From IMG/VR virus record IMGVR_UViG_3300031857_000005, positions 240,366 to 304,365 of that record: DNA of 64,000 bases, one strand, 5' to 3'. Positions 786-62,580 of this stretch are shown here, in pieces. The stretch's first letter is position 1. Every line of letters starts with the position of its first letter. The notes under the pieces are model-generated. The model was not told the origin of the DNA. It ran no database searches and was given only the letters and a program-made list of their open reading frames with translations. This DNA is from a virus. A program made the translations under genes and the position numbers.

Positions 786-811
786 AATCCCGACTTATGT
801 TGGGATTTTTT
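786..811 (+). terminator. Rho-independent terminator after nrdA
   Basis: Stem AATCCCGAC / GTTGGGATT (one G-T pair) with loop TTAT, followed by a T run. It separates the RNR gene from the virion module. Confidence 0.85.
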
Positions 812-835
812 ATTTATATAAAACTTCCCAACATT

Positions 836-843
836 ATATTTAT
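836..843 (+). promoter_or_regulatory. Candidate late promoter motif ATATTTAT before gp25
   Basis: ATATTTAT lies 5 nt before the gp25-like start. A second copy, TATTTATA at 811-818, lies 30 nt before it. The same motif recurs before many virion genes in this window. Assignment as a late promoter is inference. Confidence 0.45.
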
Positions 844-3202: not shown

Positions 3203-3209
3203 TATTTAT
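3203..3209 (+). promoter_or_regulatory. Candidate late promoter motif TATTTAT
   Basis: TATTTAT lies 15 nt before the start at 3225, in the 72-nt AT-rich gap after the gp6-like gene. It belongs to the recurring late-type motif of this window. Confidence 0.4.
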
Positions 3210-18754: not shown

Positions 18755-18762
18755 TATTTATA
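18755..18762 (+). promoter_or_regulatory. Candidate late promoter motif TATTTATA
   Basis: TATTTATA ends 14 nt before the fibre gene start at 18777. Confidence 0.45.
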
Positions 18763-18776
18763 TATAAAAAAGAATA

Positions 18777-21700
18777 ATGGCATTTTTAACGGATCAAATA
18801 CCAGCAACCGGGGTTAATTTAACTGATTTATTTCACATAGTGGATCCTAATGATTTATCACAAGGTAATCCTGCTGGATCATCATATAAAGCGTGTTTTC
18901 AGCAAGTACTTGGAGCATTAACGGGTGGAACATCTGTTATGATAGTTGGTTCTGGAATTGGTTCGGTTGAAAGATGTGGTAATAATAATGATGCAAGTGG
19001 GAACTACTCCACTGTAAGTGGTGGTAGAGTAAATACATCAAGTTGTAATTGGTCAACTGTAAGTGGGGGGTATTGTAACACATCAAGTGGGTGTTATTCG
19101 ACAGTAGGTGGCGGACAACAAAATGGTTCAACATCTAATAATTCAACTGTAAGTGGCGGGTATTGTAATACAATCTTAACAGGAGCAACAAACTCAACTA
19201 TAGGTGGAGGGAACTCCAATACAATACTAATAGGATCAACTTTAACAACGATTGGTGGTGGTGGTTTGAATACATCAAGCGGTTCTAGATCAACCGTAAG
19301 TGGTGGTGTTGGTAACACATCAAGTGGTGGTGGATCAACAGTTGGTGGTGGTCAAAGTAACGAATCAAATGGGGCTAACTCAACCGTAAGTGGAGGTTAT
19401 TATAATACATCAAGTGGTGACTGGTCAACAATTGGCGGTGGTAGTGGGAATACATCAAGTAATTATTTTTCAACAATTGGCGGTGGTAGAAGTAACACAT
19501 CAAGTGGGTGTTACTCAACCGTTGGTGGTGGTAAATGTAACACATCATCAGGTACTTATTACTCAACTATAAGTGGAGGATATCGTAATACATCAATTGG
19601 TAGTGAATCAACCATAGGTGGGGGGCGTTTTAATACCTCAAGCGGTTACTATTCAACTATAAGTGGAGGACGTTGTAACTCATCAATTGGTGCGGATTCA
19701 ACCATAAGTGGTGGTCTTAGTAACAAAACAAATAGTGACACATCAACCATAGGTGGTGGGTGTAATAATACAATATTAACTGGTTCAACAAGTTCATCAA
19801 TTGGTGGTGGTGAATGTAATACAATCTTAACAGGATCAACAAGTTCATCAATTGGTGGTGGTGAATGTAATACAATCTTAACAGGATCAACACATTCAAC
19901 AATTGGAGGGGGTGTGAGTAATACTTCAAGCGATTATTATTCAACCGTAGGTGGTGGTGCAAACAACACTTCAAGTGGAGGTAGATCAACCATAAGTGGG
20001 GGAGCAAGTAGTACATCAAGTGGATATTATTCAACCGTAGGTGGTGGTAGATGTAATAGATCGTTAGGGGATTCTACAACCGTAGGTGGTGGTCAATTTA
20101 ATAGGGCGTGTGGTCAAATATCAACAATAAGTGGGGGGCGAGCAAATATTTCGTGTGGAACATATAGTTCAGTCGGTGGTGGAAACGCTAATACGTCAAG
20201 TAGTTATGCATCAACTGTTGGAGGTGGATTCAGTAACACATCTTATGGTGTGTGTTCAACAGTAAGTGGTGGTCGTCAAAATACATCGGTTGGTGATACC
20301 TCAACGGTAAGTGGGGGTATAGGTAATACATCATTAGGAGCGTGCTCAGTAATTGGTGGGGGTGTTTGTAATACAAATATGTCTACGGGTGGTTTTATAG
20401 GATCAGGTTGTGGAAATACTTCGTGTGATGTTTATAGTTTAGTAGTTGGAGGTTATTTTAATAAAGTTAACGGTAAAGCTTCAACAGTTAGTGGAGGTTA
20501 TTGTAATACAATATTAGCTGGAGCAACAAGTTCAACCATTGGTGGTGGACAACAAAATACAATATTAGCATCAGCAGCAAACTCAACCATTGGTGGAGGT
20601 AGTGGTAACACAATAAGTAGTTTTTCATCAGTCGTAGTAGGTGGATGTTTAAACACGTCAAGTGGGGGATACTCATTTATCGGTGGTGGTAGAAGAAATG
20701 TGTCAATCGGTTTTATATCAACCGTAAGTGGAGGTTATTGTAACACATCAATCGGAGATTGCTCAACCGTAGGTGGTGGTAGAGGTAACACATCAAGTGG
20801 GTGTTATTCAACCGTTGGTGGGGGAACGCAAAATAAAAGTAATGGTGTAGTATCAACAATAAGTGGGGGTAGAACTAATACCGCATCAAATTATTTTACA
20901 TTTATTGGTGGAGGTAGAGGTAACACATCAAGTGGGTGTTATTCGACAATAGGTGGTGGATGTTTGAATCGATCTTTAGGTGTTGGATCAACAATAGGTG
21001 GTGGATTGCAAAATATAACAAGTGGTAATTGTTCGTCAATATTAGGAGGAATTAGTAATACATCAAATTGTAATGGATCAACCGTAGGTGGTGGTTGTCG
21101 TAATACTGCATCAAATTATTTTTCGTTTGTTGGTGGAGGACTACAAAATACAAATAATGGTGTTTGGGGTACCTTATCTGGAGGTATATGTAATAGACTT
21201 ATAGGTAACGGAGCATCAATTGGTGGTGGTTCTAACAATACTGCTTGTGGAGATTATTCGGTAATAAGTGGTGGAATATCGGGAACTACAACGGCAAGTA
21301 ATAATTTCATTGGTGGAGGAAGTAATAACACAACAACAGGAAACTACTCCTCAATTTTAGGTGGAGTATTTAACACCTCAATAGGAAATTATTCTTCAAT
21401 TTTAGGAGGTTCAGGAAATACCGTAACACATAATTGTTCATCGGCTTTTGGTGTTGGTATTACATCGGTTTCAGCGTGTACATTCCATACAAATTATTTA
21501 ACATTACAAAATACACCAGATACTGATCCGTCAAATACAAATTTCTTGGTGAGAGATACATCAACAGGTGTCGTTAAATCAAGAGATATTTCATTACCGT
21601 TGAATTATGCGACCTCCGCAATAACATCATCACAAACATTAACTTGGGATAAAAGTTATTGGGGGGTTAGTGGTTCATCAAATGTTGATTTAACATTACC

Positions 21701-21884
21701 GACAACAACATCGAAAGATGGTTATTATTTATTGATAAAAGATGAAGCAGGAACTTCTGGTTCATACAGAATAAGATTAACGCCAGCATCAGGATTGATT
21801 GATGGTAATTCATATGTTGATATGAATATAAACTATATGTCTCTTACTGTTATGGTGAGAAACGGAAATTGGTATATAATATGA
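18777..21884 (+). CDS. Long beta-roll tail fibre with about fifty 16-residue repeats (1035 aa)
   Basis: After an N-terminal attachment region shared with the 483-aa paralogue (residues 1-65, with PAGSSYKA and GIGS..RC.NNN), the protein is an array of roughly fifty units of the form STVSGGYCNTSSGxY, 15-17 residues each, the spacing of YadA-head-like left-handed beta rolls. From about residue 900 a non-repeated C-terminal domain follows (TSSQTLTWDKSYWG, LTLPTTTSKDGYYLLIKDE, ending RNGNWYII), typical of fibre tips with a capping jelly-roll. It is likely a trimeric receptor-binding fibre. One 51-nt unit is duplicated exactly at 19791-19892, so the array can recombine. Confidence 0.8.
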   Translation: MAFLTDQIPATGVNLTDLFHIVDPNDLSQGNPAGSSYKACFQQVLGALTGGTSVMIVGSGIGSVERCGNNNDASGNYSTVSGGRVNTSSCNWSTVSGGYCNTSSGCYSTVGGGQQNGSTSNNSTVSGGYCNTILTGATNSTIGGGNSNTILIGSTLTTIGGGGLNTSSGSRSTVSGGVGNTSSGGGSTVGGGQSNESNGANSTVSGGYYNTSSGDWSTIGGGSGNTSSNYFSTIGGGRSNTSSGCYSTVGGGKCNTSSGTYYSTISGGYRNTSIGSESTIGGGRFNTSSGYYSTISGGRCNSSIGADSTISGGLSNKTNSDTSTIGGGCNNTILTGSTSSSIGGGECNTILTGSTSSSIGGGECNTILTGSTHSTIGGGVSNTSSDYYSTVGGGANNTSSGGRSTISGGASSTSSGYYSTVGGGRCNRSLGDSTTVGGGQFNRACGQISTISGGRANISCGTYSSVGGGNANTSSSYASTVGGGFSNTSYGVCSTVSGGRQNTSVGDTSTVSGGIGNTSLGACSVIGGGVCNTNMSTGGFIGSGCGNTSCDVYSLVVGGYFNKVNGKASTVSGGYCNTILAGATSSTIGGGQQNTILASAANSTIGGGSGNTISSFSSVVVGGCLNTSSGGYSFIGGGRRNVSIGFISTVSGGYCNTSIGDCSTVGGGRGNTSSGCYSTVGGGTQNKSNGVVSTISGGRTNTASNYFTFIGGGRGNTSSGCYSTIGGGCLNRSLGVGSTIGGGLQNITSGNCSSILGGISNTSNCNGSTVGGGCRNTASNYFSFVGGGLQNTNNGVWGTLSGGICNRLIGNGASIGGGSNNTACGDYSVISGGISGTTTASNNFIGGGSNNTTTGNYSSILGGVFNTSIGNYSSILGGSGNTVTHNCSSAFGVGITSVSACTFHTNYLTLQNTPDTDPSNTNFLVRDTSTGVVKSRDISLPLNYATSAITSSQTLTWDKSYWGVSGSSNVDLTLPTTTSKDGYYLLIKDEAGTSGSYRIRLTPASGLIDGNSYVDMNINYMSLTVMVRNGNWYII
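18993..21435 (+). repeat. Coding array of about 48-nt degenerate repeats
   Basis: Units of 45-51 nt encode (S/T)(T/S)(V/I)(S/G)GGxxNTSSG. Codons for TCAACC, AGTGGTGG and AACACATCAAG recur almost unchanged, whereas the two or three exposed positions vary. Confidence 0.85.
19791..19892 (+). repeat. Exact 51-nt tandem duplication inside the fibre array
   Basis: Two identical 51-nt copies, 19791-19841 and 19842-19892, each starting AGTTCATCAATTGG and encoding one 17-residue unit. Exact identity points to a recent unit duplication. Confidence 0.85.
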
Positions 21885-23120: not shown

Positions 23121-24572
23121 ATGGCAAATCAAAAACTTACAGACAGAGTATTGGCAACGGGAGTCACATTAAATGATTTAATTCATATTGTAATTCCGAC
23201 AGATATAACTGACGATCCTGCGGGTTCATCATATAAAGCAACCGTTAGTCAGATGATGGACACTATAAGTGGTTCCACAATTATGGTTTTGGATGCAGGA
23301 ATTGGATCAACAATGAGATGTGATAATAATAATGAAGCGTCGGGAAGTTATTCAACAGTTAGTGGAGGTTATTGTAATACCTCAAGTGGAAATAAATCAA
23401 CTGTAAGTGGTGGATACCTTAATACATCGAGTAGTTATTACTCAACAGTTGGTGGTGGAGCGGCTAACACATCTAGTTGTGTTTATTCGACGGTAAGTGG
23501 TGGTCGTAACAACACATCAAGCGGTATTTATTCATTTATTGGTGGAGGATCCTTCAATAATAATAGTTCTTGTGGAAGTGTTATATCGGGTGGTGCAAAT
23601 AATTTAACAGGACCAACAGGTGTTATCTCAACTCTAAGTTCATATACTCCAAGTGCTGGATTAGGTCTTGCAGATGCGACTTACGGACCTTATTCTCAAA
23701 CAACAACAAGTGGTTATGGTGTTGGTGCGGATTTTACATTTGATGTTAGTGGTAATACAATAACTGGAGTTACAATCACAAATGGAGGTTTTGGATATAG
23801 TAATGGTGACACTATTTTTATTACAGGAACAACTTTTCCTGGTGGTACATCATCAAATGATGTTACATTAACTATTAATAATGTTTTAAGTAGTTATTAT
23901 TCAACCGTAAGTGGAGGACTAAATAATACATCAAGTGGAGATTGCTCAACCATAGGTGGAGGTAGAGGTAACACATCAAGTGGTAATGGTTCATTTGTTG
24001 GTGGCGGATCATTTAACAAATCAACTAATAATTTTTCAACAGTTGTAGGAGGTGCGGGTAACACATCAAGTTCTTATTATGTGACAATTGGTGGGGGAAA
24101 ATACAACACATCAAGTGCTTGTTACTCAACCGTAAGTGGTGGATATAGAAATACAACATTAACGGGGTCAACATATTCAATAATAGGTGGTGGTCGTAGT
24201 AACACATCAAGTGCTTCGTATTCAACAATAAGTGGTGGGTATTGTAATACAATTTTAACAGGATCAACAAGTACAACAATTGGTGGTGGTTATCAAAATA
24301 CAATATTAACAGGATCTACATATTCAACAATAAGTGGTGGTATATGTAACACATCAATTGGAATATCTTCGTCAATATTAGGTGGTTCTGGAAATACGGT
24401 TATACACGATTGTTCATTTATTGTTGGTAATGGAATAGCAACTTCTTGTCCTAATACGACATATATGAATTGTTTATCAATTATGGATTTACCAAATGAA
24501 TCGTCATTACCATTACCTTCAGGTTCTGTTTATTATTGTACGACAGGTTGTGGTATTTACTATGTTCCATAA
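23121..24572 (+). CDS. Second beta-roll tail fibre, paralogue of the 1035-aa fibre (483 aa)
   Basis: The N-terminal 70 residues align with the larger fibre (VLATGVTLNDLIHIVIP against QIPATGVNLTDLFHIVDP, then PAGSSYKA, GIGS). It has about 18 repeats of the STVSGGYCNTSSG type. They are interrupted at about residues 162-257 by a different domain of the GADFTFDVSGNTITG/TNGGFGYSNGDT class common in phage tail proteins. The short C-terminal tail (LPSGSVYYCTTGCG) differs from the large fibre. The two fibres could form alternative or hetero-oligomeric receptor-binding arms, and their shared repeats could recombine. Confidence 0.75.
   Translation: MANQKLTDRVLATGVTLNDLIHIVIPTDITDDPAGSSYKATVSQMMDTISGSTIMVLDAGIGSTMRCDNNNEASGSYSTVSGGYCNTSSGNKSTVSGGYLNTSSSYYSTVGGGAANTSSCVYSTVSGGRNNTSSGIYSFIGGGSFNNNSSCGSVISGGANNLTGPTGVISTLSSYTPSAGLGLADATYGPYSQTTTSGYGVGADFTFDVSGNTITGVTITNGGFGYSNGDTIFITGTTFPGGTSSNDVTLTINNVLSSYYSTVSGGLNNTSSGDCSTIGGGRGNTSSGNGSFVGGGSFNKSTNNFSTVVGGAGNTSSSYYVTIGGGKYNTSSACYSTVSGGYRNTTLTGSTYSIIGGGRSNTSSASYSTISGGYCNTILTGSTSTTIGGGYQNTILTGSTYSTISGGICNTSIGISSSILGGSGNTVIHDCSFIVGNGIATSCPNTTYMNCLSIMDLPNESSLPLPSGSVYYCTTGCGIYYVP
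23340..24395 (+). repeat. Second coding repeat array, interrupted by an inserted domain
   Basis: These units are the same kind as the 18993-21435 array. The insertion at about 23605-23890 encodes a non-repeat domain. Confidence 0.8.
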
Positions 24573-26267: not shown

Positions 26268-26275
26268 TATTTATA
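26268..26275 (+). promoter_or_regulatory. Candidate late promoter motif TATTTATA
   Basis: TATTTATA ends 6 nt before the start at 26282, so a transcript starting just downstream would be almost leaderless. Confidence 0.45.
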
Positions 26276-30797: not shown

Positions 30798-30858
30798 AAA
30801 GGAATGTAAAAACTTGTGAAGTTTGATTATTCCATAATTTATGTTTATATTATAATTT

Positions 30859-31758
30859 ATGGATGAAAATGAATCTTTGGTTGAATTATTGGAGGATGTT
30901 TTGGGGGATCACGGATTACACTACCCAAATAGAGGACAAATATCCTTCAATTGCCCCGTATGTGACGACGATAGAAACAAATCCAACCTTGAGGTAAATT
31001 ATTTTACAAATGTTTATAAATGTTGGTCTTGTTCTGAAAGTGAGGGTACGCACGGATCTTTGGGTAAACTTTTTGATAAATACGGGAATAAAAAACATAA
31101 AAAATTATATAACATCCTTAAACCTGAAACTGTTCAGGTGAAAGAAAAGAAAAAACCTAAAGTCCAACTACCAAAAGAGTATAAGTTATTTAAGGATGTT
31201 AATCCAAGATATCCAATTAGACAACAAGCAATAAATTACCTATATAATCGGGGAATTTCCGATTATATGATTGAAAAATACCAAATTGGGTTCTGTGATA
31301 ATGGTAGTCATTCTGGTAGGATAATTATTCCATCTTATAGTGCAAAAGGAGAACTTAACTATTACATAGGTAGAAGTTGGGATCCGTATACTAAAGCTAA
31401 ATACCGAAATCCCGAAGCCGAGAAAGAAAAAATTATTTTTTGGGAAAATTTAATTGATTGGAACAAAGATATATACCTTGTTGAAGGTGCTTTTGACGGG
31501 ATTTTCTTAGAAAACTCAATACCAATGCTCGGAAAACATATGTCAGAATTATTGTTTGAATCAATATATAATAAAGCTAAAGGTGATATTATTATTTGTT
31601 TGGATGCTGATGCGTGGGTTAACGCAGTTAAACTTTATCACGAATTAAATGGTGGAGTTCTATGGGGTAGAATAAAAATTATCAAATTACCTGATGATAA
31701 GGATGTTTGTGATTTGAAGGGAGAAATAAATGATTATTATATTGAAATACGAGATTAA
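30859..31758 (+). CDS. DNA primase (zinc finger + TOPRIM), gp61/DnaG-like
   Basis: The 299-aa protein has an N-terminal zinc ribbon with C32, C35, C55 and C58 (CPVC, CWSC), a helical linker, the catalytic core with GRIIIPSY and YYIGRSW, and a TOPRIM domain with VEGAFDG at about 208-215 and LDADAW at about 248. Primases of this kind lay down RNA primers for lagging-strand synthesis. The length fits a phage stand-alone primase lacking a fused helicase. It starts the replication module, is divergent from the minus-strand virion pair, and is coupled to the next gene by TAATG. Confidence 0.9.
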   Translation: MDENESLVELLEDVLGDHGLHYPNRGQISFNCPVCDDDRNKSNLEVNYFTNVYKCWSCSESEGTHGSLGKLFDKYGNKKHKKLYNILKPETVQVKEKKKPKVQLPKEYKLFKDVNPRYPIRQQAINYLYNRGISDYMIEKYQIGFCDNGSHSGRIIIPSYSAKGELNYYIGRSWDPYTKAKYRNPEAEKEKIIFWENLIDWNKDIYLVEGAFDGIFLENSIPMLGKHMSELLFESIYNKAKGDIIICLDADAWVNAVKLYHELNGGVLWGRIKIIKLPDDKDVCDLKGEINDYYIEIRD

Positions 31759-33199: not shown

Positions 33200-33430
33200 A
33201 TGACACATAGAGAATTTTATATTTGGTTAGAAGGTTATCTTGCTGGTAAACTTGAAAATAAACATATAGATATTACACCTATTGTTGAAAAAATGGGTGA
33301 AGTTATTAGTGATGAACAAAAGTGGATTGATGACTTCAAAAGATATAGAGATATTAATCCATTACCAATAAAACCGAATCCGTATAACCCACCGTATGAA
33401 ATTTATTGCGGTACAAAAGACACAGAATGA
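33200..33430 (+). CDS. Small hypothetical protein (76 aa)
   Basis: The start is chosen at 33200 (MTHREFYIWLEGYLAGKLEN), 1 nt after the previous stop; an ATG 24 nt upstream would overlap the zinc-ribbon gene. The first half is a helix-rich domain (IWLEGYLAGKLEN), a pattern I know in small T4-like phage proteins without assigned function. The C-terminus is Pro-rich. The stop overlaps the start of the gp47-like gene as ATGA. Confidence 0.6.
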   Translation: MTHREFYIWLEGYLAGKLENKHIDITPIVEKMGEVISDEQKWIDDFKRYRDINPLPIKPNPYNPPYEIYCGTKDTE

Positions 33431-34206
33431 TAAAAAAAATAATACACTTTTCTGATTTACACATTCGTCTTTATAAAGATCATGATTTGTATAAGTCAAT
33501 AATGGAAGATGCGATTAACCAATGGAGAGAAATCAATCCTGATAGAATTGTATTCACTGGTGATTTGGTTCACTCTAAAAATCAAATGACTCCCGAACTT
33601 ATTGAAATGGTTCGGTGGTTGCTTTTGGAATGTTCATTTATTGCACCAACAATCATTATACCTGGTAATCACGATTTCCTTGTAAACAATGTTGAAAGAT
33701 TAGACGCACTTACACCAATCATTAATTCGTTAAATAATAAAAACATTTTCTATTATAGAGATAGAGGTGTGTATGAAGATGAGAATATTAGTTGGTGTGT
33801 GTACTCGCAATATCAAGGGAATATTCCTCCTGATTTGAATGTTGCAACAGGAATAAAAGTGGGATTGTTTCACGGACCAATTCAAGGAATGAAAACCGAT
33901 TTGGGATTTGACTTTGGAGAGGAGGCGTATGATGTTGAAAAGTTCAATGGACTTGATGTTGTATTATGTGGTGATATCCATAAAAGACAAGAATTTAACT
34001 TTAAAACGGGTAAAGGTTATATGATAGGTAGCCCAATACAACAAAATATTGGTGAAAGTATTGGTAGACATGGATATGGAGTTTATAATTTAGAAACAAA
34101 AGAATATAACTATACGGACTTATTCAACCCCAAGCCATTTTTAAAGTTTGAAATTAAATCATTTGAGGATATTGAAAATGGAACCGAATTACTCAAAAAT
34201 CTTTAA
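33427..34206 (+). CDS. 47: Recombination endonuclease subunit gp47 (SbcD/Mre11-like)
   Basis: The start is taken at 33427 (ATGA overlap with the preceding stop); an ATG 21 nt upstream is in frame but less likely. The calcineurin-like phosphoesterase motifs are complete: FSDLH (about 8-12), TGDLVHSKN (about 44), GNHDF (about 80), LFHGP (about 149) and GDIHKRQ (about 180). It forms the nuclease of the gp46/gp47 complex that resects DNA ends for recombination-dependent replication. At 259 aa it is shorter than T4 gp47 (339 aa), so the C-terminal capping domain looks reduced. gp46 is three genes downstream. Confidence 0.92.
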   Translation: MIKKIIHFSDLHIRLYKDHDLYKSIMEDAINQWREINPDRIVFTGDLVHSKNQMTPELIEMVRWLLLECSFIAPTIIIPGNHDFLVNNVERLDALTPIINSLNNKNIFYYRDRGVYEDENISWCVYSQYQGNIPPDLNVATGIKVGLFHGPIQGMKTDLGFDFGEEAYDVEKFNGLDVVLCGDIHKRQEFNFKTGKGYMIGSPIQQNIGESIGRHGYGVYNLETKEYNYTDLFNPKPFLKFEIKSFEDIENGTELLKNL

Positions 34207-35587: not shown

Positions 35588-37963
35588 ATGGATCTGTTTA
35601 ATCCACCAAAAACATTTAATTATAAAATTATGATAAAAGATTTAGAGTTTTCTAAATTTGAAAACCCACCTATTCAAGTAGTATGGGAAGACATTTCAGA
35701 GAATTTCACACAAGATAAGATTAAGAGTGTTAAACATTACTTCCAAAAGAAGTACGGTTCCACTAATGTGAATGTTATCACAAAAGTTAAAAACATTCAG
35801 GAAGATACTATGCAAAGTGTTGATGTGTCTGTAAACATTATGGACACAAATTATCAAACTGATTTGTTGAAACAATTTCTTAAGTCTAAGGGGTATGAAA
35901 ATCGTATTGATGAGGTTATGTCAATCAATAGAATGGTTGAGAATAAAATGTCTGAATCAGAAGATGAAACCTCATCATTTAAGAAATGGTATATCAAAAA
36001 TATTGAATTCTCTAATTTCTTATCATATGGTGATAATCAGCGTATTGATTTTGATAAATGTAATGGTATTACAGTAGTTGAATCTAATCCACCTAACTTT
36101 GGTGGTAAGACAGTATTATCGGTGGATTTATTAATGTTCCTATTCTTTAATGAGACAACAAAAACATCAAAGGCGGAAGAAATCTTTAATCGATTTACCG
36201 ATAAAAACTCGGTAGTTGTAAAGGGTGAAATTATTATTGATGGTGAAGAATATATTATTGTTAGAAACATCGAAAGAAAAATGTCTAAGAAAGGTGAATG
36301 GAATGTTAAAACCGAATTAGACTTCTTCAAAAAACTTTCCGACGGTAGTTTACAAAACTTTACTGGTGAACAAAGACGAGAAACCGAACAATTCATTAAA
36401 ACATCAATCGGTTCTAAAGATGATTTCTTAATGACAATTTTAACCACCGCAACAAATCTTGAGGACCTTTTGGAATCAAAACCAACGGCAAGAGGACAGG
36501 TACTCTCAAGGTTTATGGGGTTGGAGTTTTTAAAGAAAAAAGAAGAATCTGCAAAACAAATTTATTCTGATTTTTCTAAATCAATGTTATCTAATGTTTA
36601 TAATACTGAGCAATTAAAAAGTGATAATGAACAATATGAAACTGATATTGAAAATTTTAAAACTAGTATTGATACATTGAAAGACGAACTTAATCAAGTT
36701 GAAGTAAACTTAACAAAGGGTAAGGATTATCGTGACGATATGTTAAAAAAGAAACATACTGATATAGATAATGATATTGCTCAAACAAACCCTGATAAGG
36801 TACAAGATGAGATTAACTCATTTGAGTATCAAAAAGGTGACATCATTAAGAAGTCAAATGAATTACAGGTAGTTGAACCATCTTCTTTTTATTATGAGGA
36901 TCAACACGATAAGGTTAAAGAAGAATATAACGAAGTATTCAAGGAAAAAATCCAAGTTGAGAGTAAGATTAAATCAATTGAGGAATTAAAGAGTTCCGTT
37001 GATGGTGGAATTAAATGCGAACACTGTGGTATTGATTTAATGATGGCATCAATCACCCAATCTAAAATTGCCGAACTTGATGGTTATAATAGGCAAAAAG
37101 AGGAAAAAGAGGGGTTAATGACGGTTTTATCAGGCAAAGAACAGGCATTTGTACAACTTAAAAAAGAGTTTGATGAGTATGAGAAAAACAAACTTATTAA
37201 AGAAAAATATGATTTGAGTATTGAGAGTTATAATCTTAAAATTGAAAATTTAAAACAAAAATTAGGAAGGTATAACGAATTGATTGAAAAAATTAAGGAA
37301 AATGAGAAGATTGAGGGTATGTTGTTAAAAGCAGGTATTAGAATTGAGGAACTTGAAAGAGAAAAGACTCAAAAACAAACACTAATCAATAATAATACTT
37401 ACCAAATCACCTCGTTGGAAGATAAGATTAAAAATAATTTAAATACAATAATCAAAATTCAGGAGGAATCTGAAAAAGAAAAATTATATAAAATATATTT
37501 GGAGGCGTTCGGTAAAAATGGGATATCTAAAATCATAATGAAAACTATGATGCCGATAATAAACTCAGAACTTCAAAGACTAATGGAGGATAGTTCATAC
37601 TTCAAACTTGAAGTTAGAATTAACGATAAGAATGAAGTTGAGTTTATGATGATTGACAACGGTACTGGTGTTGAGAAATTAATGACATCAGGTTCAGGTT
37701 ATGAAAAAACAATTGCATCATTGGCATTGAGATCAGTATTAAGTAAGATTTGTTCGTTACCAAAACCAAATATAATTGTCTTTGATGAGGTGTTCGGAAA
37801 AATATCTAACGACAATTTGGAAATGGTTTCAGAATTCTTTATTAAAATTAAAGAATATTTTGAGAAAATATTTGTCATTACACACAACCCAATGGTTAAT
37901 CAGTGGGCGGACACCATCGTTAAGATTAGAAAAGAAGATAATATTTCAAAGGTATATCAATAA
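35588..37963 (+). CDS. 46: Recombination endonuclease subunit gp46 (SbcC/Rad50-like) with N-terminal extension
   Basis: The ATPase starts at about residue 138 (IEFSNFLSYGDNQRIDF). Its Walker A reads SNPPNFGGKTVL, keeping GK-Thr but replacing the first Gly by Pro. A long coiled coil follows with a zinc hook CEHCGID at about 477, then the ABC signature SGSGYEKT (about 700) and Walker B NIIVFDEVFG (about 730). It pairs with gp47 to resect DNA ends. Compared with T4 gp46 (560 aa) it is longer (791 aa), with about 135 extra N-terminal residues that contain no motif I recognise. Confidence 0.92.
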   Translation: MDLFNPPKTFNYKIMIKDLEFSKFENPPIQVVWEDISENFTQDKIKSVKHYFQKKYGSTNVNVITKVKNIQEDTMQSVDVSVNIMDTNYQTDLLKQFLKSKGYENRIDEVMSINRMVENKMSESEDETSSFKKWYIKNIEFSNFLSYGDNQRIDFDKCNGITVVESNPPNFGGKTVLSVDLLMFLFFNETTKTSKAEEIFNRFTDKNSVVVKGEIIIDGEEYIIVRNIERKMSKKGEWNVKTELDFFKKLSDGSLQNFTGEQRRETEQFIKTSIGSKDDFLMTILTTATNLEDLLESKPTARGQVLSRFMGLEFLKKKEESAKQIYSDFSKSMLSNVYNTEQLKSDNEQYETDIENFKTSIDTLKDELNQVEVNLTKGKDYRDDMLKKKHTDIDNDIAQTNPDKVQDEINSFEYQKGDIIKKSNELQVVEPSSFYYEDQHDKVKEEYNEVFKEKIQVESKIKSIEELKSSVDGGIKCEHCGIDLMMASITQSKIAELDGYNRQKEEKEGLMTVLSGKEQAFVQLKKEFDEYEKNKLIKEKYDLSIESYNLKIENLKQKLGRYNELIEKIKENEKIEGMLLKAGIRIEELEREKTQKQTLINNNTYQITSLEDKIKNNLNTIIKIQEESEKEKLYKIYLEAFGKNGISKIIMKTMMPIINSELQRLMEDSSYFKLEVRINDKNEVEFMMIDNGTGVEKLMTSGSGYEKTIASLALRSVLSKICSLPKPNIIVFDEVFGKISNDNLEMVSEFFIKIKEYFEKIFVITHNPMVNQWADTIVKIRKEDNISKVYQ

Positions 37964-38705: not shown

Positions 38706-39613
38706 ATGAAGTAATTTTAGGTAATGCGATTGAAGTATTACAAAGATATGAGGATAATACATTTGATTTAACTGTAACATCACCACCGTATGATAACTTA
38801 AGAACTTATAATGGAAAAATTAAGGATGAGGTTGTCTTTGAAGATGGATTTAGTTTCCCATTTGTGGAAATGGCTCGTGAGTTATATAGAGTAACCAAGA
38901 AGGGTGGTGTTGTTATTTGGGTGGTAAATGATCAAGTAAAAAATGGTGGAGAAACTGGTAGTTCATTCAGACAAGCACTTAAATTTAAGGAGATTGGATT
39001 TACATTGTACGATACGATGATTTATCATAAGAATGGAGCCCCATTTCCTGAAACAGGTAGATACTCACAAGTATTTGAATATATGTTCGTCCTTTCAAAA
39101 GGGAAACCAAAAACGGTTAATCTATTAAAAGATAAACCAAATAGATGGGCGGGACATAGTAATTTTGGTGATCCATCAAAAAGAGAAAAAGACGGAAACC
39201 TTAAAAAGGTTGACAAGTTTGTTGTATCTGAATTCGGTACAAGGTATAATGTATGGTATGTTAATAATGGTAAAGGGTTCTCATCCAAAGACGACATTGC
39301 ATTCCAACATCCTGCAATATTTCCGGAATCATTGGCTGAGGATCATATTCTATCTTGGAGTAATGAAGGTGATATAGTATTAGATCCTATGTGTGGTAGT
39401 GGAACGACATTGAAGATGGCGAAACTTAATAACAGGAATTATTTGGGTATTGACATCAATGAAGAATATGTCGATTTATCAAATCTAAGAATACAAAATA
39501 TTGAACCATACACTAATGAAACACCTAATCCAAAGGTTAAATTCCTTTTATCTAAAGAAGATGCTTTATTGAAAAGAAAAAATAATAAAGAATCTAAAAA
39601 TTTGTTGGATTAA
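38702..39613 (+). CDS. DNA methyltransferase (N6-adenine or N4-cytosine), R-M partner
   Basis: The catalytic motif TSPPYDN is at residues 26-32 and the SAM-binding motif LDPMCGSGTT at about 227-236, the beta-type order (motif IV before motif I). FMETGRYSQ-like text and YNVWYV belong to the target region of the family. At 303 aa it is a usual length. It shares a 4-nt overlap with the restriction nuclease ahead of it. It would protect phage DNA against that nuclease and possibly against host enzymes. The base modified cannot be decided by eye. Confidence 0.85.
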   Translation: MNEVILGNAIEVLQRYEDNTFDLTVTSPPYDNLRTYNGKIKDEVVFEDGFSFPFVEMARELYRVTKKGGVVIWVVNDQVKNGGETGSSFRQALKFKEIGFTLYDTMIYHKNGAPFPETGRYSQVFEYMFVLSKGKPKTVNLLKDKPNRWAGHSNFGDPSKREKDGNLKKVDKFVVSEFGTRYNVWYVNNGKGFSSKDDIAFQHPAIFPESLAEDHILSWSNEGDIVLDPMCGSGTTLKMAKLNNRNYLGIDINEEYVDLSNLRIQNIEPYTNETPNPKVKFLLSKEDALLKRKNNKESKNLLD

Positions 39614-39631
39614 TAATTATTTGTATATTTG
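39601..39631 (+). promoter_or_regulatory. Host-type promoter TTTG-N19-TATATTTG
   Basis: TTTG at 39601-39604 and TATATTTG at 39624-39631, separated by exactly 19 nt, the known Bacteroidota -33/-7 layout. The ATG at 39645 follows after 13 nt. It overlaps the end of the methyltransferase gene. Confidence 0.75.
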
Positions 39632-39644
39632 TAAAAAAAACAAT

Positions 39645-40181
39645 ATGAGATATCTAATGTTTGTGTACGGTGAAAGTGAAACTATGGATAGTGAAGCCTT
39701 AACCACTAAAATTGGTAAAGAAATCCAACCCATTGTAATTTCAGAACAGATAAAATACATTTATGGTGATGGTAACGCAATTTTTCATTTTGAATCTGAG
39801 TTAAAATATGAAGAAATGTCTATGTATGTTGAGATGGTTTTTGAAGAATTAGAAGACATTATGTTTACCTTAATACCATTTAATGGTAAGATGGCAACAA
39901 ATATGGGTAAGGATAGAAAAAATCACCTATTGTCTATTGATGAGGAGGATAAGATTGAGATTAATACTTTCACTGTTAGTTCTGAAGATATTAGTAATGA
40001 TGGTGCGATTTTTGATATGTTTATGGATATGATTAATCAAGGTAGTCCATTTATTATCAATAAAACAAATGAAGATGTGTGTAATATGTCATTGGACGAA
40101 CTTTTAGATAAAATCAATGACAAGGGAATAAATTCACTCACAAAGGCGGAGAAATTAAAATTGGAACAATACTCAAAATAA
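39645..40181 (+). CDS. Hypothetical protein before the sigma gene (178 aa)
   Basis: The start is chosen at 39645 (MRYLMFVYGESETMDSEALT) because the promoter -7 element lies at 39624-39631; the longer reading from 39621 would start upstream of it. Mixed alpha/beta, strongly acidic; the last 30 residues (KGINSLTKAEKLKLEQYSK) resemble the C-terminal helix seen in many small phage proteins. It is followed after 5 nt by the sigma factor and probably transcribed with it. No family known. Confidence 0.6.
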   Translation: MRYLMFVYGESETMDSEALTTKIGKEIQPIVISEQIKYIYGDGNAIFHFESELKYEEMSMYVEMVFEELEDIMFTLIPFNGKMATNMGKDRKNHLLSIDEEDKIEINTFTVSSEDISNDGAIFDMFMDMINQGSPFIINKTNEDVCNMSLDELLDKINDKGINSLTKAEKLKLEQYSK

Positions 40182-40186
40182 AATAT

Positions 40187-40987
40187 ATGAAGGAAAAAGG
40201 AACAGGAATGCCCATTAATCAGGATGAAATCTCTCACTACCTAAAGGATATTAGGAAGATTAAAGTTATGACACCTGAAAGGGAAAAAGAATTATCTAAA
40301 CTTATGATGTCGGATACTTTAACTGACAAACAACGAAAACAAGTTGAACAGGAGTTGTTAACAGGTAATTTACGATTTGTTATTACCGTTGCAAAACAAT
40401 ATCAAAATCAAGGTTTGGATTTTCCTGATTTGGTTGCTGAGGGTAACTTAGGGTTATTGAAAGCAATTAAAAACTTTGATTGGAGTAAAAATTTGAGATT
40501 TATTTCATATGCCGTTTGGTGGGTTAAACAATCTATTATTCAGTCTTTAAATGACAATGCGAGAACAATTAGACTTCCTGTAAATGTTGTTCAGGAACTT
40601 CATAAAGCTAAAAAAGAAATTGAGAATAATGGAGGAAAACTATCGGATAAATTCTCATCTTTACCATCAATGATTGACTTAGATATGAATATCAATGATG
40701 AGGGAGATACATTCCTTGATATGATACCAAATATGGATGCAGACGCTCCTGATGCGGCTTTTAATACTGCGGACATTCTTAAAGAAAAATTAATCAATAC
40801 ACTTAGTGTTTTAGATGAAAGAGAACGAGTAATTATTGAGGATTATTTTGGACTTAGTGGAACACCAAGAACTTTGGAAGATATTGGAGGTGATTTTGGT
40901 TTAACTAAAGAACGAGTAAGACAGATTAAAGAAAGAGCTTTGAGAAGGTTACGAAATGAGAGTTCTGAATTATTTGATTATATCTAA
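40187..40987 (+). CDS. RNA polymerase sigma-70 factor, RpoD-like with shortened region 3
   Basis: The 266-aa protein has region 1.2 (about 11-40), region 2 (FVITVAKQYQNQGLDF.DLVAEGNLGLL, FISYAVWWVKQSI, RLPVN, about 60-132) and region 4 (TLEDIGGDFGLTKERVRQIKERALRRLR, about 229-256). It resembles the short Bacteroidota primary sigma. Between 133 and 195 the region 3 helices are cut down and replaced by acidic sequence. It probably redirects host RNA polymerase to phage promoters, likely the late class, replacing T4 gp55. The start could also be the Met at residue 8. It is transcribed with the upstream gene from a host-type promoter. Confidence 0.9.
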   Translation: MKEKGTGMPINQDEISHYLKDIRKIKVMTPEREKELSKLMMSDTLTDKQRKQVEQELLTGNLRFVITVAKQYQNQGLDFPDLVAEGNLGLLKAIKNFDWSKNLRFISYAVWWVKQSIIQSLNDNARTIRLPVNVVQELHKAKKEIENNGGKLSDKFSSLPSMIDLDMNINDEGDTFLDMIPNMDADAPDAAFNTADILKEKLINTLSVLDERERVIIEDYFGLSGTPRTLEDIGGDFGLTKERVRQIKERALRRLRNESSELFDYI

Positions 40988-51585: not shown

Positions 51586-51774
51586 TTATTTCATTCCTAA
51601 AATTGAGGTAATCAACCCAGACCGATTCACCCAGTCATTAGCGGTCAGTTTGTTTAATAGGATTCTGACAACCTGTTGATAATATTGATTACTCAACCAC
51701 ATCAACAATACAAAGATAGTGAAGTTTTTGGTTCTGCCAAAACTTTTGTAATCTTTTTTAAAAAAAATATTCAT
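51586..51774 (-). CDS. Small hypothetical protein (62 aa)
   Basis: Leftward ORF with an N-terminal basic stretch (FFKKDYKSFGRTK) and a helix-rich body. Followed by a terminator hairpin. It is adjacent and divergent to the Dam-type methylase. No family known; gene status moderate. Confidence 0.45.
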   Translation of the reverse strand: MNIFFKKDYKSFGRTKNFTIFVLLMWLSNQYYQQVVRILLNKLTANDWVNRSGLITSILGMK

Positions 51775-51808
51775 TGACTGATTATCATAAATATCTTATA
51801 CTTTACCT

Positions 51809-61236: not shown

Positions 61237-61384
61237 TATTATTAATAATCTTGATAACCTATCAAGATATCTATCAGCCGATGCAATTATTATTAGTGAC
61301 GACTTTTCAAATGAAGTGTTCAAAATGTTCTGCGAAGGAAAAACTGAGGATGAAATCATAAAATATATAAATAAAAACAAATGA
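61202..61384 (+). CDS. Small hypothetical protein (60 aa)
   Basis: I start it at 61202 (MGFNKRILRKDNIINNLDN). Helical, with ADAIIISDDFSNEVFKMF and a C-terminal Asn/Lys run. Its stop overlaps the glutamine synthetase start as ATGA. Unknown function. Confidence 0.5.
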   Translation: MGFNKRILRKDNIINNLDNLSRYLSADAIIISDDFSNEVFKMFCEGKTEDEIIKYINKNK

Positions 61385-62580
61385 AGATTAAACTTGAATA
61401 TCTGTGGTTAGACGGATATATGCCGGAACCAAATTTAAGAAGTAAGGTAAAAATTGTTAATTACGATGACATAAAAAATTCATTTATAACGGGTAGATTT
61501 CCTGAATGGAACTTTGACGGATCATCAACAAACCAAGCAGAAACTGGGACTTCAGACTGTATTTTAAAACCTGTAAGACATTATTTGGATGATAAATTTG
61601 GTAGTGTGTATGTTCTTTGTGAGGTTATGAATTCAGACGGAACACCACATCAATCAAATACCAGATCATTACTTGGTAATGAACAAGAGGATTTGTGGTT
61701 TGGTTTTGAACAAGAATACTTTATCTATGATAGAAAAAATAAATGTATTTTAGGCCACGATGAAAACAACTTGGAACCACAAGGTAAATATTATTGTGGT
61801 GTTGGAGAATATGTTGCGGGTAGAGAATTTGTTGAAGAACATATGAATTTATGTTTAAGGTATGGGATTAACATAACAGGAATAAATGCCGAGGTTGCAC
61901 TTGGACAATGGGAGTATCAAGTATTCTCTCAAGGTAAATTGAAATCAGGAGATGATTTATGGATGTCTAGATACCTATTACATAAGTTGTCCGAAAAATA
62001 TAATTATGGGATTGAACTACACCCAAAACCAATCCAAAAAGGTGAATGGAATGGATCTGGACTTCACACAAACTTCTCAAATTATAAAATGAGGGAAGAA
62101 GGTGGTGAAAATCATTTTAAATCAATTTTCTCAAGTTTTGCCACAAGACACCAAGAACATATTGAAAATTATGGTTCATCAAATGAATTAAGATTGACGG
62201 GTAAATTTGAAACCCAATCAATTAATAAGTTTAGTTGGGGTATTTCAGATAGAGGTGCATCAATTAGAGTTCCACAATCAACCGCAAAAGAATGGAAGGG
62301 ATATGTTGAAGATAGACGACCATCATCTAATGCTGATCCATATAAAATCATTTATCAAATATGTGAATCATTAAGAAACGCTGAAGAGATTGACGACATC
62401 AAACATAAAATGAATTATAAACTTGATATGGACAACCTTAAGATGGATTATAAAACAATCCCAACCGATGAACTATTAAAAGAATACTTCAATGATGAAG
62501 AATTTGAATTGGATGGTAAAACAATGGATGGAAGTAATATCCCTACAAAAGAAATTAAATTTGATTTAAATGGAAAATAA
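61381..62580 (+). CDS. Glutamine synthetase, type II (GSII)
   Basis: The 399-aa protein has the GSII motifs in order: WNFDGSST (about 43-49), the active-site Glu region GFEQEYF, NAEVALGQWEYQV (about 168), the WNGSGLHTNFS segment (about 222), and LRLTGKFE, FSWGISDRGASIRVP and EDRRPSSNADPY (about 270-315). GSII (eukaryotic and Bacteroidota type) has no adenylylation site. It converts glutamate and ammonia to glutamine. In a phage genome it would be an auxiliary metabolic gene for nitrogen and nucleotide supply. It overlaps the fused methyltransferase downstream. It would act as a dodecamer or decamer in the cytoplasm. Confidence 0.93.
   Translation: MKIKLEYLWLDGYMPEPNLRSKVKIVNYDDIKNSFITGRFPEWNFDGSSTNQAETGTSDCILKPVRHYLDDKFGSVYVLCEVMNSDGTPHQSNTRSLLGNEQEDLWFGFEQEYFIYDRKNKCILGHDENNLEPQGKYYCGVGEYVAGREFVEEHMNLCLRYGINITGINAEVALGQWEYQVFSQGKLKSGDDLWMSRYLLHKLSEKYNYGIELHPKPIQKGEWNGSGLHTNFSNYKMREEGGENHFKSIFSSFATRHQEHIENYGSSNELRLTGKFETQSINKFSWGISDRGASIRVPQSTAKEWKGYVEDRRPSSNADPYKIIYQICESLRNAEEIDDIKHKMNYKLDMDNLKMDYKTIPTDELLKEYFNDEEFELDGKTMDGSNIPTKEIKFDLNGK

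Follow-up and report, generated by a model that had tools for sequence, protein, structure and literature searches.

An RpoD-type phage sigma factor without the sigma 3.1 domain as a candidate middle sigma of a T4-like jumbo phage

The window (the whole analyzed stretch of 64,000 nucleotides, bases 240366-304365 of a linear virus record of 304,365 bases) contains, exactly at 40187..40987, a single plus-strand ORF of 266 aa encoding an RpoD-type sigma factor. In our main reading, to which we assign a probability of roughly 0.6, this sigma is expressed early and serves a T4-like jumbo phage as its middle sigma, recognizing promoters TTGA(C/T)-N18-TATAnT (class M), and a second, gp55-like phage sigma reads the TATTTAT promoters (class L). 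The proposed cascade is based on the domain anatomy of the protein, on the spacing and conservation of three motif classes, and on which sigmas and motifs occur together, the promoter assignments being predictions from sequence.

Pfam recognizes in the protein region 2 (PF04542, residues 59-127, E 5e-17), region 4 (PF04545, residues 206-257, E 2e-15) and region 1.2 (PF00140, residues 15-40, E 2e-5), all above the cut-off, in agreement with the initial annotation, which had described these three regions as kept. The best PHROG is phrog_351 'RNA polymerase sigma factor' (E 4.5e-53), the phmmer matches in PDB are primary sigmas (best E 4e-48), and the identity to FCB RpoDs is 39-48%. The T4 gp55 query does not find the protein among the contig ORFs, and phrog_234 (T4 gp55) is absent from its profile matches; thus, the protein is indeed closer to primary sigmas than to gp55, as had been claimed. 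An ECF sigma, consisting of regions 2 and 4 only, is ruled out by region 1.2 and the primary-sigma PDB matches. No other RpoD-like match exists in the whole contig. We name the protein RpoD-type, not full RpoD, since region 3 (PF04539) is unmatched, while the sigma 3.0 helix and the 3.2 finger are kept.

The alignment shows that most sigma 2 and sigma 4 residues are shared with FCB RpoD, and the sigma 4 recognition helix is almost the same as in the host (TKERVRQIKEKAL in the phage, TRERVRQIKEKAI in the host). The junction of regions 2.4 and 3.0, ARTIRLPV, is of the common bacterial type (ARTIRIPV in SigA) and not of the Bacteroidota type RIVRLPL. The conserved C-terminus, SxL(F/Y)(D/E)Y(L/M/I), resembles the LDFL tails of T4 gp43, gp33 and gp55. 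Still, the clamp-binding reading of this tail was set aside, as no phage clamp was found and host RpoD ends with LKxYLG; the tail may simply be inherited from RpoD, and clamp binding is kept as a lead only. Searches of five records for the gp45 clamp and the gp44 clamp loader gave no match, though distant clamps can escape such searches.

The main structural difference from host RpoDs lies in region 3. PF04539 has no match in any of the four phage copies tested and is present in all three Bacteroidota RpoDs, host proteins matching it at E about 1e-15 to 1e-17. An alignment with 80 FCB RpoD loci shows that region 3 of the phage sigma has lost some 20 residues or more: it retains the sigma 3.0 helix (132-147) as well as the 3.2 finger (DMNINDEGDTFLDMI), and the sigma 3.1 helices are gone. 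The AlphaFold model, of modest confidence (mean pLDDT 66), has no helix of at least four residues in the stretch 148-194. A short region 3 is a trait of the clade rather than a sign of a damaged gene, since all 80 viral homologues fetched from the many present in IMG/VR (75-100% identical) are equally short, 266-276 aa. Hence, of the description of region 3 in the initial annotation as short and acidic, the former part stands, while acidity is not distinctive: with a median of -8, the segment carries the same net charge in the phages and in 77 host RpoDs.

In the phylogenetic tree, the phage clade (support 100/99) and FCB RpoDs are separated from the RpoDs of E. coli, clostridial and cyanobacterial type with support 100/100, FCB hosts forming their own group (90/91). 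These values come from a reduced tree, as the first one included very distant phage sigmas and suffered from long branches. The phylogeny with host rpoD, suggested earlier as a check, thus groups the sigma with primary sigmas on the FCB side, supporting the acquisition from an FCB-side rpoD. On the other hand, the phage clade is one long branch of 2.6 changes per site and is not nested among the sampled host RpoDs, which points to an old or fast-evolving acquisition and not to a recent capture; the capture of a host rpoD, as formulated originally, holds in this restricted sense.

The sigma gene belongs to a phage: it comes from a virus record, all its neighbors are phage-type, and it is not an essential housekeeping sigma of a cell. 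The genome is partly T4-like, encoding gp46/gp47, primase, DNA polymerase, helicase, SSB, UvsX, exonuclease and a DnaB-like helicase; gp25/gp6-type baseplate genes and a tail sheath are also found. The phage is probably a T4-like jumbo phage with a Bacteroidota host, the latter being inferred from the kinship of the sigma and the host-type promoters. Near each contig end there is a glutamine synthetase-like gene (window 61381-62580, 399 aa, and contig 650-1855, 401 aa), the two being related to each other, and two long proteins built of STVSGG..NTSSG repeats (window 18777-21884 and 23121-24572) are probably tail or surface proteins. The features of the window are listed in Table 1.

Table 1. 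Features of the window, with predicted promoter sites (window coordinates).
Feature	Position	Strand	Basis
Class L site before the gp25-type baseplate wedge gene (849)	811..817	+	site scan; gene phrog_261/43
Second class L site before the same baseplate wedge gene (849)	837..843	+	site scan
Class L site before the 1754-aa ORF	3203..3209	+	site scan
Class L site before the 1035-aa repeat protein ORF	18755..18761	+	site scan
Class L site before the 812-aa ORF	26268..26274	+	site scan
Class M promoter TTGAT-N18-TATATT before the primase gene	30823..30851	+	spacing counts, ortholog leaders
DNA primase	30859..31758	+	phrog_47, E 3e-43
SbcD/gp47-like nuclease subunit	33406..34206	+	phrog_100 and Pfam Metallophos
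SbcC/gp46-like subunit	35588..37963	+	phrog_77, E 3e-41
Class H promoter TTTG-N19-TATATTTG of the DUF6576-sigma operon	39601..39631	+	TAnnTTTG conserved in leaders of relatives
Gene with C-terminal DUF6576 segment, co-operonic with sigma	39645..40181	+	Pfam DUF6576, E 2e-11
RpoD-type phage sigma, regions 1.2, 2, 3.0, 3.2 and 4, without sigma 3.1 domain	40187..40987	+	ORF, Pfam, PHROG 351, PDB phmmer, host RpoD alignment
Retained sigma 3.0 helix, codons 132-147	40580..40627	+	AlphaFold helix, alignment
Short linker replacing host sigma 3.1 helices, codons 148-164	40628..40678	+	alignment; PF04539 in hosts, not in phages
Retained 3.2 finger-like segment (LDMNINDEGDTFLDMI), codons 165-180	40679..40726	+	alignment with host RpoDs
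Class M promoter TTGAC-N18-TATACT before the D12-type DNA adenine methylase gene (51809)	51774..51802	+	spacing counts; methylase Pfam

The promoter of the operon containing the sigma gene is of the host type (class H). The host consensus has TAnnTTTG at -7 and TTTG at -33 (PMC7366714). The TAnnTTTG box is observed in 46 of 47 distinct leaders of the DUF6576-sigma operon in relatives, as compared to one of 47 on the opposite strand. Complete TTTG-N19/20-TAnnTTTG sites are enriched in FCB hosts (14 vs. 0) and are present in the phages as well (20 vs. 4 antisense). This conserved host-type box suggests that the operon is expressed early, by the host sigma, the timing being read from the promoter only. 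The DUF6576 gene, whose true start is likely ATG 39645 and not TTG 39621, since homologues begin at the same Met, always adjoins the sigma gene under the same early-type promoter; its product might be a sigma partner or an anti-sigma.

The promoter class that co-occurs with the RpoD-like sigma is TTGA(C/T)-N18-TATAnT, equal to TTGACn-N17-TATAnT. It was found by data exploration, using counts by spacing, and independent support comes from conservation in orthologs. In particular, TTGAC exactly 18 nt before TAnnnT occurs in 13 sense gaps and one antisense gap (mean 1.7 and maximum 7 in 200 shuffles), and none of these 13 sites has TAnnTTTG. Among orthologs, TTGA(C/T)-N18-TATAnT is present in all ten distinct DNA polymerase leaders and in eight of nine distinct SSB leaders (the ninth has TATTAT), the spacers having diverged, as well as in several primase and gp47 leaders of relatives. 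Fixed-spacing counts and ortholog leaders were used in place of unrestrained two-block motif EM, which drifted and merged the promoter classes; 50-bp motif EM picked up terminators.

Class M is absent from the 78 gaps of the complete genome of Flavobacterium phage immuto and from 249 gaps of immuto-type fragments, both without an RpoD-like sigma. Since a genome carries only about 6-10 such sites and about three would be expected in immuto, the zero in immuto alone is weak evidence. In FCB hosts class M is not enriched (1 vs. 1). The assignment of class M to the RpoD-like sigma draws on this presence and absence in two phage groups, which is a correlation, on the fact that both sigma 2 and sigma 4 are kept, and on the 2.4-3.0 junction being of the common type.

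Two further elements were observed in leaders of class M genes. In primase leaders, a conserved block CTTGTGaAG, a possible activator site, stands immediately upstream of the -35 TTGA (in the window, upstream of 30823). The DNA polymerase mRNA leader (contig about 200400-200468) contains a conserved two-helix RNA element GGU AAA UGUCG ... CGGCA ... ACC, with 98% of cells paired, compensatory changes in five of eight pairs, none of 500 shuffles being as good, and no Rfam match. This element is a candidate translational operator, like that of T4 gp43.

The contig encodes one more sigma outside the window. The T4 gp55 profile phrog_234 has a single match in the contig, a 248-aa ORF at 152654-153400 on the minus strand (E 1.5e-4 in the genome search and 0.0026 in hmmscan; Pfam Sigma70_r2 0.098). 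The top Foldseek matches of its AlphaFold model (pLDDT 76) are sigma factors, none reaching E 0.001, but with TMt 0.73 for the alignment to the sigma E region 2 domain. This gp55-like sigma is divergent; its orthologues are common in viral contigs and well conserved, and both sigmas are carried by all seven examined records longer than 270 kb, the present one included. No consistent motif was found in the promoter of the operon encoding the gp55-like sigma. Immuto has the gp55-like orthologue (profile E 4.7e-18) and no RpoD-like sigma, as established by a search of the whole record; the immuto protein is annotated merely as hypothetical (KNV73_gp118). No RpoD-like match exists in two more contigs of the immuto type (162 and 167 kb); the same is true of LR756508 and Mel-JY01, considered as additional gp55-only controls, where only 44 and 16 gaps were sampled, making the motif counts uninformative.

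In the whole window the plain count of TATTTAT is at the chance level (59 vs. 57 expected), the enrichment being confined to the sense strand of upstream gaps. There, TATTTAT is the most strand-biased 7-mer, found in 76 of 171 contig gaps (31 antisense; 13.9±3.2, maximum 25, in dinucleotide shuffles). Its median position is 15 nt before the ORF start, it is often preceded by A and followed by an A-rich sequence, and it has no -35 partner. The T4 late box is TATAAATA; in our own comparison, class L, written as TATTTATA, differs from it only in the two central bases. In FCB host gaps TATTTAT is not enriched (17 vs. 16, shuffle 16.3). In immuto 25 of 78 gaps contain it, as compared to 10 in antisense and 4.6±1.9 (maximum 12) in shuffles, and ATATTTAT is found 15 times in sense and never in antisense. 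In immuto-type fragments the strand bias of TATTTAT is weak (51 vs. 44), that of ATATTTA being 70 vs. 20. The contrast with immuto and the T4 parallel are the reasons to assign class L to the gp55-like sigma, which TATTTAT tracks.

The initial annotation had proposed that the RpoD-like sigma was specialized to a different promoter, likely TATTTAT. Specialization is plausible, and the strong sense enrichment of TATTTAT in a genome carrying this sigma, where it precedes virion genes, agrees with the proposal; still, TATTTAT as the target is the least probable of the readings considered, as immuto has TATTTAT and the gp55-like sigma without the RpoD-like one, the contig itself encodes a gp55-like sigma, and the sites lack a -35 partner whereas sigma 4 is intact. 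The phage protein could also be a substitute housekeeping sigma, acting on TAnnTTTG, so that the early genes of the phage would stay active even with host RpoD switched off or in short supply. Its closeness to FCB RpoD, with most sigma 2 and sigma 4 residues shared, and the class H sites of the phages fit such a role, but we consider it unlikely: the operon of the sigma itself needs a TAnnTTTG promoter before any phage sigma exists, and class M, tracking the sigma and absent from hosts, would be left unexplained.

Less probable than such a substitution, though more probable than the TATTTAT reading, is the recognition of class M by host RpoD with a phage activator similar to T4 MotA/AsiA, perhaps the DUF6576 protein, with the RpoD-like sigma doing something else. 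The conservation of the DUF6576 gene in the operon with the sigma, and the additional block upstream of TTGA in primase leaders, are consistent with an activator. However, complete -35 and -10 boxes at a fixed sigma70-type spacing fit a sigma that itself possesses regions 2 and 4, making an activator unnecessary. The real determinant of class M, or a contributor to it, could nevertheless be the DUF6576 partner or another activator specific to the clade.

In the preferred reading, with a middle RpoD-type sigma, the host RNA polymerase with the host sigma would start from TTTG-N19/20-TAnnTTTG promoters, including that of the DUF6576-sigma operon, as the conserved element suggests. The new sigma would then bind the host core polymerase and direct it to class M promoters in front of genes for replication and recombination, namely those for DNA polymerase, for SSB (followed by UvsX, exonuclease and DnaB), for primase and, in relatives, for gp47. 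Of the two boxes, the -35 would be contacted by sigma 4 and the -10 by sigma 2; without sigma 3.1, a minimal connector would remain, with the 3.2 finger retained. Finally, the separate gp55-like sigma would read the -10-only TATTTAT promoters. We give about an even chance to the combined claim that the phage sigma, without a 3.1 domain and as the middle step of a two-sigma cascade, makes Bacteroidota RNA polymerase, whose own sigma uses TTTG/TAnnTTTG, read E. coli-type TTGACn-N17-TATAnT promoters. The named promoter class, the named target genes and the contrast with immuto make the promoter question directly testable. If the claim is true, one phage protein may reveal the sigma residues that separate the unusual Bacteroidota promoter from the common bacterial one, and it could be the source of an orthogonal promoter system for genetic work in Bacteroidota.

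RpoD-like sigmas of jumbo phages and the presence of two sigma types are already known from the jumbo phages of 'group 2' (Iyer et al. 2021, PMC7824862; PHROG 351). Judging by the consulted part of that work, those phages resemble the present one in their T4-type genes for replication and the capsid, in lacking their own RNA polymerase, and in having two sigma types, one minimal and one near cellular RpoD. Unlike here, no promoter class is assigned in that part, and the sigmas described there differ from ours, which lacks the sigma 3.1 domain and falls on the FCB side of the RpoD tree. Relative to these described sigmas, the clade-wide loss of sigma 3.1, the FCB kinship and the proposed division of labor with a specific promoter class are new; a limited literature search found no report of promoters read by RpoD-like sigmas of Bacteroidota phages.

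With the Bacteroidota primary sigma (sigma ABfr / RpoD) the phage protein shares regions 1.2, 2 and 4, the signatures VAKQYQNQGL and ISYAVWW, and the lack of region 1.1, but it has no PF04539, ARTIRLPV in place of RIVRLPL, a shorter C-terminus and a separate long branch. Like T4 gp55, which works with gp33 and the gp45 clamp, it is encoded by a T4-like phage near gp46/gp47 genes; unlike gp55, it has regions 1.2 and 4, the gp55 relative being another gene of the same contig; neither the gp45 clamp nor the gp44 clamp loader was recognized in the five records searched, where a distant clamp may have escaped detection. In phiEco32 and 7-11, host promoters are used first, followed by a phage sigma for middle and late genes, as inferred from intergenic motifs (PMC4331800). 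The order proposed here follows the same logic, with the difference that those phages have one sigma, whereas the present phage has two, with separate promoter classes.
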